Positions 2,973-41,336 of a DNA stretch of 46,642 nt are shown one piece after another (position 1 is the stretch's first letter; each line of letters opens with the position of its first letter). The stretch comes from a virus: positions 1-46,642 of the IMG/VR virus record IMGVR_UViG_3300031977_000822; one strand, 5' to 3'. The position numbers were made by a program, and so were the translations under genes. The notes beneath the pieces were generated by a model, which was given only the letters and a program-made list of their open reading frames with translations, did not search any database and was not told where the DNA came from.

Positions 2973-5900
2973 ATGGCAAATCCTTTTGAAAAGTATGTGC
3001 CGCAGCAACAACAAGGTACAACTAATATAAATCCGTTTGATAAATACTTACCTGAAGAACTAAGAAAATCAAAATTCAATGTTACAACTGATGGTGGTAT
3101 AAATCAAGCTTTACAATCTTCTGAAAATAAAGAAGATATCAATCCATTTCTAAAGTATGTACCGCAGCAAAAATTAGGTAGTACTAGTTTATGGGAGGAT
3201 ATCTCTTTTGCGTTTAGGCTAGGCTTTAAAGATACTTATCGTGGTGTCAAACAAATGTCTGGCATTGATAAAGAAGAATTAAAAAAAGAACAGCAAGAAT
3301 TGTACAGAAAAATGCAAGGTGAGAATGGTGGTTGGATTGCTGCTGCTTATTTTGGGGGTGCAATTTTAGATCCTGCTGGATGGCTAATACCTTTAGCTAA
3401 AACAAAAACATTATATCAGTTAGCTAAATATGGATTTGTAACAAGTGGTTTTGCAGGTGCACTTGGGTATGTAGATGAAGATAGTGTATTAGACACTAGA
3501 GCAAAACAAGCTGCTGCTAGTGCAGTAGGAGGTACAGTTATATCTCCAGTATTAGGAGGACTTGTTGGATTAGCTAGAGGAAAAAAAATACCTTTAGGTA
3601 TTCCTGGCACAGCAAGTGCAGAAAAAAATATTAAAGATTTAAATGCATCTGTATTAGAAAAAGTTAAATTACAAAATGAAGCAGGTGAAGCAGATAGAAT
3701 ATTTAAAACTAGAAAACAGATTGAAATAGAAGAATCAGAATTAGTTAATGATGTTCCTGTAGATAGAAGCCAATTATTAAGAGGACCTAGAAGATTTTTT
3801 CAAGAATTTGTTGTAGAACCTTACCAAGAAAAAATAGGTAGACCTACATTTAATTATTTAACTAATGGAGAATATGGTGCAGAGACTGCTACTGGATTAG
3901 TAGGTGGTTTATATGGAGTATCTACTACTGATGATGATGCCCCTATTACAACTAAATTAGGAAGAGCAGCTATGGGATTTGCTACAGGGTTTGGTGGTAT
4001 TAGAGCAGCTAAAAAATATCAGGTTACTAAAACTTTTGTAAAAGGTGAAAAAGAATTTACAGAATCATTAAGTGAAACATTAGGTAGAAACTTTATTGAT
4101 AACTATAAATTACCTAAAGAGTTTACTAAATTACAAGCTGAAGCACAAGGTCATTCAAATCATATTGCATCTAGATTTATTAATCTAGCTAAAAAAGTTA
4201 AAAATAATTTAACACCTGATGAAAGTAGAATTTTATATAATATGCTTGAGGGTGATACTAGATATACAGTATCTTCAGATACTCTTAAAAAATTAAGTAA
4301 AGAAGCAAGAGATTTAATTACAGAAATTGCACAAGAGTATGTAGATGTTGGATTAATTACAAAGGAAACCTTTAAAAGAAATAAAGAAACATATTTAAAA
4401 AGATCATATGTTGACTATACAGAAAGTGGAAAGTATGGTGAAGAATTAAGAGCAAGAGGTGCAATTCAAACTGTTACTAAAAATGATTATTTAAGAATAT
4501 ATAAAAAACAAAAAGCATATACAACAACAGGATTAGAACAAGACCCTATCGGTTTATTTAAATTAGTTCAAGGTAAAAAGACATTACTAAAAGGGCACAG
4601 AGGTTGGGAATTATTAGGTACTTCTGAAAAACAATTTAATAAATTAAAAGGTACTGATGAAGTACAAATTAGATGGGAGTATACTAAACCACAAAGAGTG
4701 GGTTTAGGTGAGATTGAAGATGCATCATTTGCATTAGCAGAAACTGGTAAAGCATTTTCAACTACACTTACAAGATTTAAATTCTATGATAGTATATCTA
4801 AAATAGATAGTATTGCATTTACAAAACCTACTGCATTAGAAAGACAACAATATAAACTAATTAAAATGCCTGATAGTTTTATTGAAGGCACAGATAAAAA
4901 AGTTTATGGTAATCTTGCAGGTAAGTATGTGCCAGAAGAAGTTTATAAAAACTTAACATCTGCTGAAGCACATTTAAAAAGAACATCTAATTCATTATAC
5001 GAAAAATATAGAAAATTAAATTCAATTTGGAAGGTTAGTAAAACTGCATGGAATCCTACAGTTCATACTAACAATACTATGTCTAACTTTATTTTGCTAG
5101 ATTTAGTTGATGGTAATTTTAAAGATCTAATACCTTCATTTAAAGCTTTAATGAAACATGGTAAAGGTAAACAAAGATCAGAACTAGTTGAACTTGCACA
5201 GAAAAATGGGTTGTTTGATGCTGATTATGTTAATGTTGAATTAAAAAATATACAAGCAACATCATTAAACTTTCCATATAAGTTTAACGAAAAAACAGAT
5301 ACATTTAATAATTCTGTAAATGCTGCAAGTTCTATATTTAAAGATTTAAAAACAAATAATATATTAAATAGTGCAACTCAATTGTACAGATTTGAAGATT
5401 CTGTATTTAGATTAGCATTATTTATGGACAGATTAAGAAAAGGTTTTACTCCAGCAGAAGCTGCATTAGATGGTCGTAAATCATTTATTGATTACAATAT
5501 TAATGCACCAGCTATTGATTGGATGAGAAATAGTATTACACCTTTTATTGCATATACTTATAGAATTGTTCCTATCCTTGCAGAAACTGCTATTGTTAGA
5601 CCTTGGAAATATGCAAAGTATATGGCTCTTGGTTATTCACTAAATAAACTAGGTGAAATCATGGGTGGTGGAGATCAGGAAGCAGAAAGAGCAGCTATGG
5701 CTGAAAGAAAATCTGGTAGAATATTTGGAATTTATCCTATGCCATATAGAAATATTAAATTACCAGAAGTTAGAACAGATCCAGATAAACCCTTTATTGG
5801 TCCTAGATATATAGATATTACAAGGTTTATTCCTGGTGGTGATATATTAGATTTAGGAACTCCAGGTATTCCTGGTCTACCTGCACCACTACAGCCATCA

Positions 5901-6443
5901 TTCGGTTTAGCAGGGGATATTGCATTTCCTCTGATGGGATATGATATATTTAGAGGTAGAAAAATTCCTGGTCAAACAGGTATAGGTGCAGAAGATATGG
6001 GAATTAGATTGGATACAATACGAGAAAAACTAGTTCCTAACATTCCATTTATTCCTGGTTCATATTCTACAATTAGAATGGAAAAAGCTAGATCTGAAAT
6101 GCAATCTCCGTTTAAAGCTAAAGAAACAGAACTAGGTGCACTATTTAATGCTCTTGGATTTAAAATAGAAAGAGTTGATTTGCAAAAATTAAGAGCATCT
6201 AAAATTATGGAAATGGAAAGAAAGCTAAGAGGATACCAAGAACAAATAACAAACTTTACAAAACAGTATAGTTCTGGATTAATTAATAGAGATACTTTAA
6301 GAAAAAAAATAGAAGATAGAAAAAATAAAATAAAAGATCTCGCAGAAAAATATAAAGTAAAAGTTTCAACCCAAAGCGAAGAAGGAAGTAGAGAACCATT
6401 TACAATTGATATTAATAAACTAACCAATCCTTTTATTAAATAA
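2973..6443 (+). CDS. Giant internal virion/DNA-ejection protein (1156 aa)
   Basis: The longest gene in the window. Residues 3-12, 20-29 and 57-66 carry three copies of a short motif, NPFxKYxPxx. Residues about 120-205 form Gly/Ala-rich hydrophobic segments able to enter a membrane, and more hydrophobic patches occur around the ITPFIAYTYRIVPILAETAI stretch. The C-terminal 150 residues are Lys-rich coiled coil. Size, membrane-active segments and position fit the large proteins that podoviruses keep in the capsid and inject to pass DNA (the T7 gp16 role). No lytic transglycosylase motif is obvious. Ends by overlapping the next ATG by one base. Confidence 0.85.
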   Translation: MANPFEKYVPQQQQGTTNINPFDKYLPEELRKSKFNVTTDGGINQALQSSENKEDINPFLKYVPQQKLGSTSLWEDISFAFRLGFKDTYRGVKQMSGIDKEELKKEQQELYRKMQGENGGWIAAAYFGGAILDPAGWLIPLAKTKTLYQLAKYGFVTSGFAGALGYVDEDSVLDTRAKQAAASAVGGTVISPVLGGLVGLARGKKIPLGIPGTASAEKNIKDLNASVLEKVKLQNEAGEADRIFKTRKQIEIEESELVNDVPVDRSQLLRGPRRFFQEFVVEPYQEKIGRPTFNYLTNGEYGAETATGLVGGLYGVSTTDDDAPITTKLGRAAMGFATGFGGIRAAKKYQVTKTFVKGEKEFTESLSETLGRNFIDNYKLPKEFTKLQAEAQGHSNHIASRFINLAKKVKNNLTPDESRILYNMLEGDTRYTVSSDTLKKLSKEARDLITEIAQEYVDVGLITKETFKRNKETYLKRSYVDYTESGKYGEELRARGAIQTVTKNDYLRIYKKQKAYTTTGLEQDPIGLFKLVQGKKTLLKGHRGWELLGTSEKQFNKLKGTDEVQIRWEYTKPQRVGLGEIEDASFALAETGKAFSTTLTRFKFYDSISKIDSIAFTKPTALERQQYKLIKMPDSFIEGTDKKVYGNLAGKYVPEEVYKNLTSAEAHLKRTSNSLYEKYRKLNSIWKVSKTAWNPTVHTNNTMSNFILLDLVDGNFKDLIPSFKALMKHGKGKQRSELVELAQKNGLFDADYVNVELKNIQATSLNFPYKFNEKTDTFNNSVNAASSIFKDLKTNNILNSATQLYRFEDSVFRLALFMDRLRKGFTPAEAALDGRKSFIDYNINAPAIDWMRNSITPFIAYTYRIVPILAETAIVRPWKYAKYMALGYSLNKLGEIMGGGDQEAERAAMAERKSGRIFGIYPMPYRNIKLPEVRTDPDKPFIGPRYIDITRFIPGGDILDLGTPGIPGLPAPLQPSFGLAGDIAFPLMGYDIFRGRKIPGQTGIGAEDMGIRLDTIREKLVPNIPFIPGSYSTIRMEKARSEMQSPFKAKETELGALFNALGFKIERVDLQKLRASKIMEMERKLRGYQEQITNFTKQYSSGLINRDTLRKKIEDRKNKIKDLAEKYKVKVSTQSEEGSREPFTIDINKLTNPFIK

Positions 6444-34236: not shown

Positions 34237-36315
34237 ATGGCTGACGATAAACAACAAGAACAATATCACGGTAATAATCTTGTTGGTCATATTCGTAATA
34301 AGTTTCAAGAATCAGAAACTTCAAAGATATATGATGAGAAGAGATGGTTAAAAGCATACAGAAACTATAGAGGTATCTATGGTCCCGAAATGGCTTTTCG
34401 TGATAATGAAAAATCTAAAGTATTTGTAAAAATTACAAAGACTAAAGTTCTTGCTGCGTTTGGTCAAATTATTGAAGTTTTATTTTCACAAGGTAAATTT
34501 CCATTAGGAATTAAACCTACTACAGTTCCAGAAGGAACTTCAGAGTATGCTAGAATGCGACAACCTGATGAGCAAGCTAGCGAAGATACCAATGAAGATA
34601 ACATTGTAAAAGATATGTATGGTTATCCTGGTGATGGTAAAGAAATAAAACCAGGAGCAACAGCTGCAGATTTAATGCAAACTCTTGCCCAAGACTTTAC
34701 TGAATTAGGTTTTGAAGAAGGTACAGCAATAAGAGGTGAGCCTCAGATTGAACCAGCTAAAATGGCTGCAGAAGCAATGGAAAAACTAGTTCATGATCAA
34801 TTAGAAGAATCCAAAGCTGTAACAATTATGCGTCATACATTTTTTGAAATGGCATTAATGGGTACAGGAATTATTAAAGGTCCATTTTCAAATACTAAAA
34901 CATATCATAGTTATGATAGAGTTGAAGATGTAAATGTTTATATTGCAAAAGAAAAATCAGTTCCAAGTATTGAAGCTGTATCTTGTTGGGATTTTTATCC
35001 AGATCCAAATGCTACAAATATCAATGACTGTGATTATGTAATTCAAAGACATAGTTATAATAAACAACAATTAGTTGATTTAAAAAATAAACCTATGTTT
35101 GATGGAGAAGCTATTGAAGCTTGTTTACAAGAAGGACCTAATTATCAAATTAGAGGATACGAATCATCTCTTTATGATAGAGAAAATATTACTAGTGTAT
35201 ATAATAATAGATTTGAGATTTTAGAATACTGGGGTATTATAGATGCAGATATTGCAAGAGAATATGGAGTAGATATTGCAGAGGATATGGACTTTGCACA
35301 TGTTAATGCATGGATATGTGGTAATCATATTCTAAGAATTGTTGAAAATCCATTTACTCCAAAAAGAATACCATATTTAGTTTGTCCATATGAAGTTAAT
35401 CCTTATCAATTCTTTGGTGTAGGTATTGCAGAAAATATGGAAGACTCACAACAAATTATGAATGGTCATGCTAGAATGGCTATTGATAATTTGGCACTAG
35501 CAGGTAATTTAGTTTTTGATGTTGATGAAACTATGCTAGTACCTGGACAGGACATGAAAGTATTTCCTGGTAAAATATTTAGAAGACAAAGCGGTCAAAC
35601 AGGTCAAGCTGTTCATGGATTAAAGTTTCCTAATACTGCTATAGAAAACTTACAAATGTTTGATAAGTTTAGACAGCTAGCAGATGAATCAACAGGTATA
35701 CCATCATATTCACATGGTGCTACTGGTATTCAATCTACAACTAGAACTGCATCTGGTATGTCAATGCTTATGGGTGCAGCTGCATTAAGTATTAAAACAG
35801 TTATTAAAAATATTGATGACTATCTATTGAAACCCCTAGGTGAAGCATTATATCATTGGAATATGCAATTTAATGATGATGCTCCACAGGTTAAAGGCGA
35901 TTTAGAAGTTAAAGCTGAAGGTACATCTTCACTAATGCAAAAAGAAGTTAGATCACAAAGACTAATTACATTTATGCAAACAGCTTCTAATCCTGCTTTA
36001 GCACCATTCGTTAGATGGCATACATGCTTAAAAGAAATTGCAAAATCTTTAGATATTGATCCAGAACAATTAATCAATGATCCAGAAAAAGCTGCAATAT
36101 ACGCAAACATAATGGGGATGGTAAATGGAAATCAAAATAATACAACCTCTACTGGAGGACAAAATCAAATGGCAACAACTGGAGAAGTTCCTGTTGGAGC
36201 TTCAGCAACAGACGTATCGGGAGCTGGAGGTGGCAACATCGGAACAGGTAGTGTACCGATGCCAGGGGAAGCTGGGTTTAGTGCGACAACTGCTGAATCT
36301 GCAAGAAGCCAATAA
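34237..36315 (+). CDS. Portal protein (692 aa)
   Basis: Large, acidic, mostly helical protein directly between terminase and scaffold/capsid genes. The N-terminal part, KSKVFVKITKTKVLAAFGQI, the long middle domain with FDVDETMLVPGQDMKVFPGK and a 'stem' helix region (TRTASGMSMLMGAAALSIKT) fit podovirus head-tail connectors. It forms the ring through which DNA is packaged. A Gly/Ser/Thr/Asn-rich tail follows (from about residue 630). The family is divergent, so the call rests partly on position. Confidence 0.85.
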   Translation: MADDKQQEQYHGNNLVGHIRNKFQESETSKIYDEKRWLKAYRNYRGIYGPEMAFRDNEKSKVFVKITKTKVLAAFGQIIEVLFSQGKFPLGIKPTTVPEGTSEYARMRQPDEQASEDTNEDNIVKDMYGYPGDGKEIKPGATAADLMQTLAQDFTELGFEEGTAIRGEPQIEPAKMAAEAMEKLVHDQLEESKAVTIMRHTFFEMALMGTGIIKGPFSNTKTYHSYDRVEDVNVYIAKEKSVPSIEAVSCWDFYPDPNATNINDCDYVIQRHSYNKQQLVDLKNKPMFDGEAIEACLQEGPNYQIRGYESSLYDRENITSVYNNRFEILEYWGIIDADIAREYGVDIAEDMDFAHVNAWICGNHILRIVENPFTPKRIPYLVCPYEVNPYQFFGVGIAENMEDSQQIMNGHARMAIDNLALAGNLVFDVDETMLVPGQDMKVFPGKIFRRQSGQTGQAVHGLKFPNTAIENLQMFDKFRQLADESTGIPSYSHGATGIQSTTRTASGMSMLMGAAALSIKTVIKNIDDYLLKPLGEALYHWNMQFNDDAPQVKGDLEVKAEGTSSLMQKEVRSQRLITFMQTASNPALAPFVRWHTCLKEIAKSLDIDPEQLINDPEKAAIYANIMGMVNGNQNNTTSTGGQNQMATTGEVPVGASATDVSGAGGGNIGTGSVPMPGEAGFSATTAESARSQ

Positions 36316-36329
36316 ACGAAATAAGGAAG

Positions 36330-37433
36330 ATGGTATTACAACTTAAAAGAAATACAGCAACTGGTCAATATGTAATTGATTATGGTGTTCCAGATATTAC
36401 AAAACCTGCTGTAACAGCTGGTGAATTTGAAGCATACTCAGGTTTACAGAATCAAACACAATTAGTTGGTACTACAACATTAGGTGAACAAACTCAAAAA
36501 GTTATGAGAGAAGCACCTGGTCAAGTTACAACTGAAGTTGATCCAGAAACAGGTGAAGTTAAAACTAAAACAACTGGACAACAAGTTGAAGTTGAACAAA
36601 AACCAATTACAAGTTTAGAAACACAAACAGGTGCTGCAGTTCAACCTACAGAAACACCTTTAGAAAAAGCAATGAGATTTGCTAGTGCAACTGCACCTTC
36701 ACAGCAAAATCAATTTGATCCTAATGAATACTTTAGTAGAATTGAACAAATTCAAAAAAGTGCACAAAAAGCACAATTAACTAATACACTAATTAAAGGT
36801 GGATTAGATATTGGAATGACTTATTTAAGAGGTAAGTTAGGTGGATTCTCAACTGGTGGTATTGTACAAACCCCATTAAGTGGTGGTACTTATGGTACTG
36901 GTGGTGGATTTATGTCAACACCTACTGGTGGTGGTTTTGCAGCTGCTGGTGCTACATTATTACAAGGTGGTAGTGTTAAAGATGCTGCTAAAGTCGGTGC
37001 TGGTACAGCTGTTGGTACAGCACTTGGAACTGCAGTAGGTGGACCTATCGGTGGTGCAATTGGTGGAACTATTGGAAGTATTGTAGGATGTTTCTTACCT
37101 GATACCTTAATTAAAATGGCTGATGGTTCAGAAAAAGAAATTATTAATATTGATATTAAAGATAATCTTGAAGTAGGTGGTAAAGTATTTGCTACTGGTA
37201 AGTTTTTAATTAATAACTTATTTGATTATAAAGGAATTAAAGTTTCTGGAGAACACTTAGTTAATGAAAACGGCAAGTGGTTAAAAGTTAAAGATAGTAA
37301 GTTTTCAAAATCATTAGGCAACGATGAGCATATTGTTTATACACTAGGATCAGAAAACAGAAGAATATTAATTAATAATATTTTATTTACAGATTATTTT
37401 GACTTTGAAGAACAGAAGACGTTGGCAGCTTAA
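36330..37433 (+). CDS. Glycine-rich protein with a C-terminal Hint (intein/hedgehog) domain (367 aa)
   Basis: Residues 1-130 are polar and Thr/Gln-rich; 155-253 are a Gly/Ala/Thr-rich hydrophobic glycine-zipper region (AVGGPIGGAIGGTIGSIVG). At C254 a Hint-like domain starts (GCFLPDTLIKMADGSEKEI), with GIKVSGEHLVNENGKWLKV (H309) and ILFTDYFDF near the end. C254 is the only Cys. In Hint domains such a Cys makes an N-S acyl shift, cutting the bond before it. No C-terminal HN-C/S/T is seen, so hedgehog-type or cleavage-only processing is likelier than splicing. Role in the virion is unknown. Confidence 0.85.
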   Translation: MVLQLKRNTATGQYVIDYGVPDITKPAVTAGEFEAYSGLQNQTQLVGTTTLGEQTQKVMREAPGQVTTEVDPETGEVKTKTTGQQVEVEQKPITSLETQTGAAVQPTETPLEKAMRFASATAPSQQNQFDPNEYFSRIEQIQKSAQKAQLTNTLIKGGLDIGMTYLRGKLGGFSTGGIVQTPLSGGTYGTGGGFMSTPTGGGFAAAGATLLQGGSVKDAAKVGAGTAVGTALGTAVGGPIGGAIGGTIGSIVGCFLPDTLIKMADGSEKEIINIDIKDNLEVGGKVFATGKFLINNLFDYKGIKVSGEHLVNENGKWLKVKDSKFSKSLGNDEHIVYTLGSENRRILINNILFTDYFDFEEQKTLAA

Positions 37434-37833
37434 TCAAGATTATCCAACATTACAAAAATGGTTTAATGAACATAAATGGGAATCACCTATTCCACAAGAT
37501 GTTTTACCAGAACTTGGAATAATAATTGAAGATATATGTGCTGCTGGATTATATACCGATAAAAGTTCTACATTAGGATATATGTATGGTATATTTTCAA
37601 ATCCTAATATTCCTAAACTAACATTGTTTAAAGCAATGGAAGATTGTTTTGAAGGAATAAAAGAATTAGGAAAAGAATTAAATTTAAAATATATTTATAC
37701 AGTAACAGGTGAAAATGCATTACATAAATTATATGAAAAACATTTACACTTGACAAAATTAGAAACTACAATACAATCATATATTATAGATTTAAATAAC
37801 ACAAACAAAAATTTAGATTGGATATCAGAATAA
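37399..37833 (+). CDS. GNAT-like acetyltransferase-type protein, TTG start (144 aa)
   Basis: Overlaps the Hint gene by 35 bases; the start is TTG, at 37399 or a few codons later. The pattern PTLQKWFNEHKWESPIPQDV, then LGYMYGIFSNPNIPKLTLFK, AMEDCFEGIKELGKELNLKY-IYT and LHKLYEKHLHLTKLET is the N-acetyltransferase order seen in phage proteins. May modify a virion or host protein. Fold call by eye, moderately sure. Confidence 0.72.
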   Translation: MTLKNRRRWQLNQDYPTLQKWFNEHKWESPIPQDVLPELGIIIEDICAAGLYTDKSSTLGYMYGIFSNPNIPKLTLFKAMEDCFEGIKELGKELNLKYIYTVTGENALHKLYEKHLHLTKLETTIQSYIIDLNNTNKNLDWISE

Positions 37834-37834
37834 T

Positions 37835-38389
37835 ATGGCAATAGGACCAGATGGAAAAGTAACTACTACAGGAATGATGGGTGTTAAACCTACTACTCCA
37901 CAAGCACCAAATTTAAGTGCTTTGGGTACAGGTCAAAAACAAGCACAGCCTGCTCAACAACCAACACCAGAACCTGAAAGTGATTTAAAAAAACAATTTC
38001 CAGATGCAACAGACATGGAACTGGAATTTGCTGAAAGAGTAAAATCTTTAACGGATGAGGATACTGCAGCATTGCAATCTGTTTTATCCCCATCTGTTAG
38101 GACTGCATTAGGTAAAATTATACCAGAGTTCAAAGAAATTATGGATGCTTATGGTAGTAATGAAGCTAATGTAGTTATACCTGTCTCAATAGCAAGTAAA
38201 TATGCTATGGCAAAGTATAACACACCAAACCCAGAGGAAGCATTACAAAGCATGACAACTGAGTTATTAGCTGTCTCTGATTTGCAACCAATGGGTGAAC
38301 AACCGATGGAACAACAACAACAAACAACTGTGCCACCTAGTCAACCGCAAGGTATTATGACTAGCCCACAAAATATGGAGCAAGTATAG
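37835..38389 (+). CDS. Unknown head-region protein (184 aa)
   Basis: Starts one base after the previous stop. Pro/Gln/Thr-rich ends around a compact helical centre (LEFAERVKSLTDEDTAALQS, LGKIIPEFKEIMDAYGSNEA). Position before the scaffold suggests assembly factor or minor head protein. Unknown family. Confidence 0.78.
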   Translation: MAIGPDGKVTTTGMMGVKPTTPQAPNLSALGTGQKQAQPAQQPTPEPESDLKKQFPDATDMELEFAERVKSLTDEDTAALQSVLSPSVRTALGKIIPEFKEIMDAYGSNEANVVIPVSIASKYAMAKYNTPNPEEALQSMTTELLAVSDLQPMGEQPMEQQQQTTVPPSQPQGIMTSPQNMEQV

Positions 38390-38434: not shown

Positions 38435-39403
38435 ATGGAAGAAGAAAACAAAGTTCAGGAAACTGAACAAGAAGTCGAAGCGACTGAAGATAACCAAGAA
38501 ATAAAAAAGGAAGTTAAGTTAAAAGACTCTAATCCTTATCATAAAGATTATGGTGAAGATGATGATGAAACAAAAGCTTTTCTTTCTGGTAAACTTTCTA
38601 AATATCATCAGGAGCAGAGAGAAAATAAGGCAAACGCAGCAACCGAACAGAAGGACACCGATGCGTCTGAAGAAACTGCAGACTCAACAGACACCAAGGC
38701 TACTCCTATCGCTGAACGCCCTGTAAATGCTGAAGATAAAGTCTTTAAGAAACGTTATGACGATCTTAAAAGACATTATGATTCTACGATTCAAAAACAT
38801 AAGGATGAACTTCGTTCTTTACGAACTCAATTAGAATCAAGTACTAAACAATTTGTTCCTCCAAAATCTCAAGAAGAATTAGAGAAATGGAGAAGAGAAT
38901 ACCCAGATGTTTATGGCATGATTGAAACCATTGCTATGACAAAGGCAGACTCTAGAGCAAAGGAAGTAGAGGAGAAATACCAATACTTACAATCTCAACA
39001 AGAACAAATTGCTAGGGAGAAAGCTGAAGTAGAACTTTTAAAACTACACCCAGACTTTAATGATATTCGACAAAAAGAAGAATTTCATGAATGGGCTGGT
39101 AAGCAAGATCCTGTTATTCAAAGTTGGTTGTATGAGAATACATCTAACGCATCATTAGCTGCTAGAGCTTTAGATCTATATAAAATGGATGCAGGCATTA
39201 GTAAGTTAAATAAACAGGAAAAGGCTGATGTAAAAAAAGAAGCTGCTAAAGCTGTCACTAAAACTAAAAAGAGTACTGATTCTGATATGCCAGTTAAAAA
39301 AGTCTGGACAATTGATGAGATTTCTAGATTGAAACCACATCAATATGAGAAGTATGAGAAGGAGATCGACCAAGCACGTTTAGAAGGTAGAATCAAACAA
39401 TAA
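38435..39403 (+). CDS. Scaffold protein (322 aa)
   Basis: Directly upstream of the capsid gene. Very acidic N-terminus, long coiled coil (YDDLKRHYDSTIQKHKDELR, KEVEEKYQYLQSQQEQIARE), conserved-looking LLKLHPDFNDIRQKEEFHEW and a basic C-terminal domain (IDEISRLKPHQYEKYEKEID). This is the build of podovirus scaffolds, whose basic C-terminus binds the coat. Needed for prohead assembly, absent from the mature virion. Confidence 0.87.
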   Translation: MEEENKVQETEQEVEATEDNQEIKKEVKLKDSNPYHKDYGEDDDETKAFLSGKLSKYHQEQRENKANAATEQKDTDASEETADSTDTKATPIAERPVNAEDKVFKKRYDDLKRHYDSTIQKHKDELRSLRTQLESSTKQFVPPKSQEELEKWRREYPDVYGMIETIAMTKADSRAKEVEEKYQYLQSQQEQIAREKAEVELLKLHPDFNDIRQKEEFHEWAGKQDPVIQSWLYENTSNASLAARALDLYKMDAGISKLNKQEKADVKKEAAKAVTKTKKSTDSDMPVKKVWTIDEISRLKPHQYEKYEKEIDQARLEGRIKQ

Positions 39404-39441: not shown

Positions 39442-40380
39442 ATGGCTTTTGGTAGTGCTGGTGGATACGGAAATTTACCTTCAGGTAATTTCACTCCACA
39501 AATTTTTAGCCAAAAGGTTCAAAAATTCTTCAGAAGAGCATCAGTGGTAGAAGATGTAACTAACACTGATTACGCTGGAGAAATTGAAAACTTTGGTGAT
39601 ACTGTTAAAATAATAAAAGAACCTACAATCACTGTACAAGATTATGCGAGAGGTACAGCTGTTTCTACTCAAGATTTAGCTGACGATCAAATTACTCTTG
39701 TAGTTGATCAAGGTTCTTACTTCGCATTCAAAGTAGATGACATTGAAGAAAGACAATCTCATGTAAACTTTGAATCACTTGCAACTTCTTCAGGTGCATA
39801 CTCATTAAAAAGAAACTATGACTTTAATGTGTTAAAACACATTTATGACAATGCTGCAACTTCAGCTGGTAATACTGGAACAGATGGTTCACCAATCGAT
39901 GGTGATGCTGCTGTTGACACATTAGCAGATGTTGTATCAGCTGCAAAGACAGTTCTTGATGGGAATGACGTACCAGAAGAAAATAGATGGTTAGTTGCAC
40001 CGCCTGCATTCTTTCAACAATTAAGAAAAGCAGGTGCTAAATTATCAGACCAGTCAATCTTAAATGATGGTGCTGCATCGCAAATCAGAAATGGTAAAGT
40101 CACTGACAGACCATTATTTGGTTTCAACATGTACATGACTAATGCGATTGCTGTGTCTGGTGGAAATGCTGCAAACAAAACATTTGGTTCATCTGGAGCA
40201 AATGAATATGCGTTCTTATATGGACACATGTCTGCAGTTGCAACTGCTAACCACATTGCTAAAACAGAATTAATCAGAGACCCTGATTCATTCGCAGATA
40301 TCGTTAGAGGACTACACGTATTCGGAAGAAAAATCTTAAGAGACGATGCAGTTTACTCTGGTGTTATCACAATTGGTTAA
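39442..40380 (+). CDS. Major capsid protein (312 aa)
   Basis: AGGAGG 10 bases before the ATG. A typical marine podovirus coat: N-terminal GNLPSGNFTPQIFSQKVQKF, central LVAPPAFFQQLRKAGAKLSD, C-terminal FLYGHMSAVATANHIAKTEL then IVRGLHVFGRKILRDDAV. Predicted HK97 fold. Codons here use C-ending alternatives more often than in neighbours, as for a very highly expressed gene. Followed by a decoration-type gene and a hairpin. Confidence 0.93.
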   Translation: MAFGSAGGYGNLPSGNFTPQIFSQKVQKFFRRASVVEDVTNTDYAGEIENFGDTVKIIKEPTITVQDYARGTAVSTQDLADDQITLVVDQGSYFAFKVDDIEERQSHVNFESLATSSGAYSLKRNYDFNVLKHIYDNAATSAGNTGTDGSPIDGDAAVDTLADVVSAAKTVLDGNDVPEENRWLVAPPAFFQQLRKAGAKLSDQSILNDGAASQIRNGKVTDRPLFGFNMYMTNAIAVSGGNAANKTFGSSGANEYAFLYGHMSAVATANHIAKTELIRDPDSFADIVRGLHVFGRKILRDDAVYSGVITIG

Positions 40381-40874: not shown

Positions 40875-40934
40875 TTGAGTACTTGGAATGCCAAATGGGT
40901 TCCATTTTATAACTCGCTTAACAAGGAGATAAAA

Positions 40935-41336
40935 ATGACATTAAATATGTTACCTTTATTCAATTCATTAACAGTAGGATTTGACTCTATGTTTGATGAA
41001 TTATCAAAATTACCAACTTCAACTTTTCCTCCATATAATATTGAGAAAGTAGAAGAAGGAAAATATAAAATTACTTTCGCAGTTGCAGGTTTCAACAAAC
41101 AAGACGTTGATATATCTTGCAAAGAAAATACTTTGAAAGTGTCAGGCAAAATTGAAATGCCAAAGAACGCTGACTACTTATACAAAGGTATTGCTGAAAG
41201 AGCATTCAACCAATCATTTAAATTAGCAGATTACACAACTGTTGTAGGTGCTGAAATGAAAGATGGTTTACTTCATGTAGAATTAGAACAAGATCTACCT
41301 GAAAGTAAAAAAGAAAAGAAAGTAGATATAAAATAA
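40935..41336 (+). CDS. Small heat-shock protein, IbpA/Hsp20 type (133 aa)
   Basis: AAGGAG (40923-40928) 6 bases before ATG 40935 decides the start. The alpha-crystallin core is clear: YNIEKVEEGKYKITFAVAGF, VDISCKENTLKVSGK, YLYKGIAERAFNQSFKLADY and GLLHVELEQDLPESKK, in the same order as E. coli IbpA. An ATP-independent chaperone that keeps proteins from aggregating; in this position it probably helps capsid or tail assembly. Short polar C-terminal tail ends KKVDIK. Confidence 0.93.
   Translation: MTLNMLPLFNSLTVGFDSMFDELSKLPTSTFPPYNIEKVEEGKYKITFAVAGFNKQDVDISCKENTLKVSGKIEMPKNADYLYKGIAERAFNQSFKLADYTTVVGAEMKDGLLHVELEQDLPESKKEKKVDIK

Follow-up and report, generated by a model that had tools for sequence, protein, structure and literature searches.

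The DNA under study, hereafter the window, is a stretch of 46,642 nucleotides corresponding to positions 1 to 46,642 of the IMG/VR virus record IMGVR_UViG_3300031977_000822. The portal protein gene lies on the plus strand at positions 34237..36315 (SU10_portal, E 1.5e-36), and its product shows amino acid sequence identities of 76% and 49% to the portal proteins of Pelagibacter phage HTVC033P and HMO-2011, respectively. On the basis of these identities, the window is assigned to the HMO-2011-type podoviruses. Its source is a marine bacterial virus. HTVC033P is described in PMC9038755 as a representative of subgroup IX of the HMO-2011-type group. Directly downstream of the portal gene is the subject of this investigation, an open reading frame encoding 367 amino acid residues (36330..37433, plus strand). 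The protein is placed by its position in the head module, and its designation as a virion protein is putative. The major capsid protein gene is found at positions 39442..40380 on the same strand (phrog_267, E 4.4e-60). The original prediction had located the open reading frame between the portal and the scaffold. The portal is indeed its immediate neighbor, but the scaffold gene (38435-39403) is only a presumed one, its sole match being phrog_13678, a PHROG of unknown function, and two open reading frames (37399-37833 and 37835-38389) intervene.

Several other features of the region were noted. The first of the two intervening reading frames, on the plus strand, overlaps the end of the gene under study, has its listed TTG start within that gene, and matches phrog_17252, which is of unknown function (E 7.5e-8). 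A 73-residue reading frame at 36125-36346 (plus strand) overlaps, in a different frame, the end of the portal gene. It resembles gp56 of CRP-13, a small gene product encoded between the portal and the post-portal protein (BLASTP E 1e-6, a single pair), and did not match gp50 of HMO-2011, which occupies the equivalent place. An Hsp20 small heat-shock protein (40875-41336, plus strand; phrog_432, E 1e-34) is encoded immediately after the major capsid gene.

The post-portal protein can be divided into several segments. Residues 1-161 (36330..36812) form an N-terminal domain that is common to relatives carrying other C-terminal cassettes. A glycine-zipper-like segment extends from residue 223 to Gly 253 (36996..37088); the Gly-rich stretch that had been reported before Cys 254 is real, and it matches Pfam Gly-zipper_Omp over residues 223-254 with an E value of 0.039, which is below the cut-off. 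The remaining 114 residues, 254-367 (37089..37430), constitute a Hint domain. Its first residue, as had been proposed, is Cys 254 (codon 37089..37091), the predicted nucleophile, such that the predicted scissile bond lies between Gly 253 and Cys 254. The codons for His 309 and Asp 355, which are Hint positions 56 and 102, are located at 37254..37256 and 37392..37394, respectively. All of these features are on the plus strand.

When searched by itself, the domain matches Pfam only weakly, its hit to Hom_end_hint having an E value of 0.03 and a score of 14.7 bits, compared with a cut-off of 32.1. When 48 members of the family were searched with E values up to 0.1 accepted, Hom_end_hint was matched by 46 of them (best E 4.9e-6), Vint by 17, and Hint by 14. 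An AlphaFold model of residues 254-367, calculated from 48 sequences and without templates, displays a mean pLDDT of 93.1 and a pTM of 0.84. The best structural match to the model is BIL2 of Tetrahymena BUBL1 (6y75_A), with a Z-score of 13.8 and an rmsd of 1.9 over 107 residues. Inteins follow with Z-scores of up to 13.2, the BIL domain of C. thermocellum (2lwy) with 12.9, and hedgehog with 12.4 (6tyy) and 12.2 (1at0, rmsd 2.0 over 102 residues). Indeed, the listed intein, BIL, Vint, and hedgehog chains all fall between Z 10 and 14. The match exceeds what chance would give: of the 584 segments in a six-frame translation of the window, a profile HMM built solely from 32 Hint family members on proteins outside the N-terminal family of the window selected a single one, namely this domain, with an E value of 1e-54, and no hits were reported against 2000 shuffles of the domain. 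At the level of a predicted model, the Hint fold of residues 254-367, with Cys 254 as the first residue of the domain, is confirmed, in keeping with the original prediction.

The active site was examined in an alignment of 57 distinct Hint domains among the matches listed, with pairwise identities down to 32%. Three of the aligned rows stop before the later blocks, leaving 54 domains there, and L075 was omitted given that its first ATG follows the cysteine. The initial cysteine, Cys 1, is present in every domain (57/57), and the block-B histidine at domain position 56 is equally invariant (54/54); both lie outside the search patterns with which the relatives were found. Met 10, Lys 16, Tyr 47, Lys 48, and Gly 49 are likewise invariant, but they fall within those patterns and are not independent observations. 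At the block-B threonine position, three residues before the histidine, serine is observed in 36 and alanine in 18 of the 54 domains, and threonine is absent. The identity of the residue at this motif varies among inteins. The position assigned to block F, 11 residues before Asp 102, using block names and a spacing that we take to apply here, is occupied by arginine in 52 of the 54. Given these changes in blocks B and F, the active site departs from those of the well-studied inteins. The residue preceding Cys 1 is a glycine in 37 of 52 rows and mostly aromatic in the others.

Position 102 is an aspartate in 53 of the 54 domains and is followed by tyrosine (51/54) or phenylalanine (3/54). In several structural alignments with inteins, the last aligned model residue is 102, facing the end of the intein, and for 6rix_B, whose companion entry is titled N145AA, model residues 1..102 are aligned with residues 1..145; these alignments list solely the first and last aligned residues, and hence Asp 102 is a placement at the terminal asparagine position and not a residue-by-residue proof. 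The +1 cysteine, serine, or threonine of class 1 inteins is absent from all 54 domains. Aspartate is among the residues given in PMC7664689 as accepted at the intein terminal position; in the present family the polypeptide chain continues past it. With aspartate at the terminal asparagine position and tyrosine next, ordinary splicing is unlikely, and the earlier statement that there is no splicing C-terminus holds. From these alignments, the first Hint step, the acyl shift at Cys 1, looks to have been kept and ordinary splicing to have been lost. In L066, L073, and L074, a canonical Hint domain ending in VVHN directly precedes the FTDY-type Hint on a Gly-rich protein. As judged by eye in L073, the canonical domain ends in YVVHN where this family has FTDYF. 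The first Hint of such tandem pairs could splice or cleave by itself.

In most of the Hint relatives, about 25-35 conserved residues follow the FTDY motif as a tail, of which there are at least two types. This tail occupies the place of the hedgehog sterol-recognition region, which follows the Hint domain as described in PMC7765530. Taken with the fold match to hedgehog (Z 12.2-12.4) and a C-terminus devoid of the asparagine and nucleophile, it would be in accord with a hedgehog-like ligation, in which the thioester is passed to a lipid, sugar, or protein and the N-terminal part becomes covalently attached. The subgroup to which the window belongs, however, retains the Hint domain and is missing the tail, and in relatives the domain is replaced by Peptidase_S74, which releases instead of ligating. 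Such a ligation is consequently regarded as quite improbable.

A scan with the N-terminal domain of the window, together with the loci found before, yielded 54 distinct open reading frames, of which 26 end in a Hint domain, 21 in ICTEL, and one in a Peptidase_S74-like domain, with six being truncated. ICTEL is a previously undescribed helical module of ∼108 residues that begins around [VI]-C-[TS]-[EM] and occupies the same slot as Hint. When the loci from a scan with the S74 tail were added, the counts for this N-terminal family among the matches listed were Hint 27, ICTEL 38, and S74 5. A second, unrelated N-terminal family carries S74 in 30 and Hint in 10 of the matches listed. The DNA of L161/L049 (Hint) is 98.2-98.4% identical to that of L155/L156 (ICTEL) over 3.1-3.2 kb, and the identity stops at base 3635/4002, two bases before the Hint cysteine codon (3637/4004). 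L133 (Hint) is 90.5-90.9% identical to L134/L135 (ICTEL) over 2.8-3.8 kb, and again the sequences part two bases before the cysteine codon (3812 versus 3814). For L017 (S74) and L016 (ICTEL), the identity is 98.4% on the upstream side of the exchanged piece and 95.2% on its downstream side. Given that L161 and L049 come from a single contig, the evidence amounts to two independent Hint boundaries and one S74 exchange.

A tree of the N-terminal domain was calculated for 46 of the 54 reading frames, the six truncated at the 3' end and two with incomplete N-terminal parts being excluded. On this tree, several branches of which are long, the cassette label changes at least nine times, and the well-supported branches alone force five changes for Hint. 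Nine is below the mean of 16.1 expected from shuffled labels, and thus the cassettes are also inherited in blocks. A quick tree of the second family, in which several branches are long and some joins may be false, displays six label changes, at least three of them forced for Hint. The Hint domain is an interchangeable C-terminal cassette that has been repeatedly swapped with Peptidase_S74 and ICTEL.

On the evidence of its relatives, the S74 cassette is a genuine one. The tail of L017 scores 18.5 against a Pfam cut-off of 22, which is reached by five of six relatives tested, including L246, and by itself the L017 tail gave no sequence match in the PDB. The scan with this tail returned 83 viral relatives, of which the best 80 were analyzed. 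Between L246 and the ICTEL protein L208, the N-terminal parts share 85% identity. A serine and a lysine five residues on are kept in 49 of 49 tails, one of the 50 being truncated, a count that is partly circular because the profile was built from tails picked by a motif holding both residues. The spacing is that of the autoproteolytic dyad of MYRF, Ser 587 and Lys 592, which according to PMC3742440 is equivalent to that in the endosialidases. The S74 domain is described in PMC7824862 as detaching itself and as aiding the folding of tail fiber, tail spike, and other low-complexity proteins. The main argument for an equal function is that, more than once, one self-cleaving domain has given way to a domain of unrelated fold in the same location. 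A self-processing protein at this position had been thought unusual. This view is not supported, since close relatives carry the S74 autoprotease in the same position and many marine phage proteins bear Hint cassettes.

The third cassette, ICTEL, yields a confident, all-helical AlphaFold model (16 sequences, pLDDT 89.0). Searches of the PDB gave no sequence match and no fold match of note, which is not evidence for a new fold, and against Pfam nothing better than an E value of 0.0027 was obtained, in two of 16 members. A cysteine is present at the start of ICTEL in 73 of 75 distinct reading frames among the matches listed, the exceptions being L212, which is cut at the 5' end, and a fragment on L154. 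ICTEL also ends gp76 of HTVC033P (L018) and gp49 of HMO-2011 (L020), and the N-terminal part of L018 groups with the Hint proteins L055 and L057. For the end of CRP-13 gp55, which we presumed to be akin to bacterial "CFI-box" C-termini, NCBIfam gave no such match.

ICTEL is without a known self-cleaving fold, and thus exchange alone need not signify autoproteolysis. It is conceivable that the Hint domain is non-catalytic and folds, caps, or docks the protein as a retained assembly or oligomerization tag that is exchanged with like tags. That ICTEL, common in the same slot, has no recognized protease fold, and that the block-B threonine and block-F residues are altered, would agree with such a role. 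Both Cys 1 and the histidine, however, are kept in every domain examined, and the self-cleaving S74 is another alternative in the slot, such that a purely structural tag is judged unlikely. A broader proposal, to which we lend somewhat more credence though still well short of belief, is that marine phages draw on a few unrelated C-terminal cassettes (Hint, S74, and ICTEL) that can stand in for one another, each of them detaching itself from structural proteins once these have been assembled. If so, ICTEL would represent a novel type of domain for autoprocessing or sorting, and the slot would be a general maturation site for different self-cleaving chemistries.

The cassette is not confined to the N-terminal family of the window. 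A scan with the Hint domain gave 147 viral relatives, the best 80 of which were analyzed; a further scan gave 128, of which again the best 80 were analyzed. In 69 of 69 distinct viral reading frames among the matches listed, the domain lies at the C-terminus, and no more than 22 residues extend past the profile match. The N-terminal parts of the Hint, ICTEL, and S74 proteins (196 in all, among the matches listed) fall into 20 BLAST clusters, and Hint is found on at least 10 of these. Its carriers include Gly-rich fiber-like proteins (L061, L073), a large phrog_358-matching protein (L064), and the family of the window. Genes adjoining the Hint reading frames in L061, L073, L080, L084, and L092 match virion structural PHROGs. 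In L084, a ferrochelatase-like gene (844-1491; phrog_2954, E 3.1e-49) lies two genes upstream of the Hint-bearing protein, and L068 (4001-4336) places the cassette on a viral contig of 196,581 bases, far larger than the phage type of the window. A role in toxin release was also considered and dropped; nothing follows the Hint domain, and no toxin domain was reported in the proteins examined.

Many Hint cassettes on unrelated proteins are preceded by a Gly/Ser-rich or charged linker without a zipper, and a glycine zipper also precedes ICTEL, as in L128 and L135. The zipper thus belongs to the host protein and is not linked to Hint. This observation bears upon the suggestion that cleavage is delayed until the DNA is ejected and so sets the time at which the zipper segment forms a pore. 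The segment does lie immediately upstream of the Hint domain; yet it is retained by the N-terminal part when one cassette replaces another, it is absent from other Hint carriers, and a candidate internal virion protein is encoded elsewhere (2973-6443; phrog_342, E 3.2e-4). The suggestion, which came with the original prediction, is now considered very improbable.

The window Hint domain compared with its four nearest relatives shows dN/dS values of 0.05-0.07, and it is under strong purifying selection. The median over 352 pairs is 0.34, and values for distant pairs reach 1.15, multiple changes in such pairs making the method unreliable. Against L006, L011, and L013, the N-terminal part is 50-61% identical (dN 0.35-0.46) and the Hint domain 91-93% identical (dN about 0.04), with similar dS. 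Against L001, dS is 0.21 for the N-terminal part and 0.75 for the Hint domain, and thus the cassette has had a separate history even where both phages carry Hint. Both the fold and block A resemble those of inteins, as would be anticipated for a degenerate intein or a selfish element stuck at the end of a gene. The lack of an endonuclease insert and of a C-extein, the consistently C-terminal location among the matches listed, the low dN/dS, and the clean exchange with unrelated cassettes all speak against such an origin, and it is given scarcely any weight.

Taken together, the data lend a little better than even support to the proposal that the Hint domain serves, in the manner of S74, as a self-cleaving maturation tag at the C-terminus, one that cuts between Gly 253 and Cys 254 and frees residues 1-253. 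The altered block-B and block-F residues, the want of a known self-cleaving fold in ICTEL, and the missing tail in the subgroup of the window count against this proposal. We infer the cleavage, the resolution of the thioester, the timing, the product, and the virion location in the following scheme. The post-portal protein would be synthesized with its cassette, and folding, or oligomerization and assembly, would position the Gly-Cys bond. Cys 254, assisted by His 309, would then attack the Gly 253-Cys 254 bond in an N-to-S acyl shift, and the resulting thioester would be resolved by water or another nucleophile. Residues 1-253, ending in glycine, would thereby be freed as the mature part, and the Hint piece would be discarded. 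Release of the N-terminal part, one of the outcomes put forward earlier, is by this reasoning the likely one. The cassette would have the role of S74 in the sister phages, namely that of a chaperone or tag which is coupled to assembly and is shed by autoproteolysis, and the swap with S74 suggests a common way of trimming maturing virus proteins.

That Hint and S74 have repeatedly been exchanged on one phage protein constitutes evidence from nature that the two serve the same purpose. The function of the module is thereby open to direct testing through cassette exchange, and a widespread step in marine phage assembly is indicated. The presence of ICTEL on the HTVC033P and HMO-2011 proteins allows tests on isolates. 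The family is moreover a source of many small Hint domains that are expected to cleave without splicing.

Autoprocessing by Hint domains is known for inteins, hedgehog proteins, BIL domains, and secreted bacterial proteins. Tblastn searches of 50,697 phage records with the full protein, the Hint domain, and two diverged Hint cassettes revealed no member of the cassette family, just short intein-like similarity, mostly in helicases, and thus no cultured phage can be named for the Hint form. A scan of bacterial and archaeal genomes, one per species for 84,980 species, gave 17 loci, all with short or generic Hint/intein similarity. Phage Hint domains are known as inteins in the accounts given in PMC3556154, PMC5259590, and PMC5526547. 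In the open-access PMC literature, no paper was found on C-terminal Hint cassettes of phage structural proteins or on their exchange with S74. Phage proteins named "Hint domain containing protein" in BFVD/UniProt, some of fibronectin type, have the same predicted fold; their annotation is by name only, and no cassette exchange was described for them in the papers found. What is new here is Hint as an interchangeable C-terminal cassette on a phage protein.

With class 1 inteins the phage domain shares the fold, Cys 1, and the block-B histidine, but it differs in having no +1 cysteine, serine, or threonine, an aspartate for the terminal asparagine, a threonine or alanine for the penultimate histidine, and no C-extein. 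The Hog domain of hedgehog is alike in its fold, in the single N-terminal acyl shift expected, and in the C-terminal tail of many relatives; that tail is absent in the subgroup of the window, and the ligation, to sterol or otherwise, that is known for Hog is not indicated here. Peptidase_S74, the endosialidase intramolecular chaperone (PF13884), resembles the phage Hint in its C-terminal location, its presence on the same two N-terminal families, and its proposed self-removal. The phage Hint is not an S74 member, however, and its fold and chemistry are unrelated to the Ser-Lys pair of that domain. Nearest in kind are the B-type BILs, which are described in PMC7765530 as being without the C-terminal motif and as cleaving on the N-terminal side. 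The window Hint likewise has no C-terminal splicing motif, its N-side cleavage is predicted, and BIL domains (6y75 and 2lwy) are among its best structural matches. It differs from the BILs in its Asp-Tyr end, in its block-F arginine, in being always the last domain of phage proteins, and in being swapped with S74.
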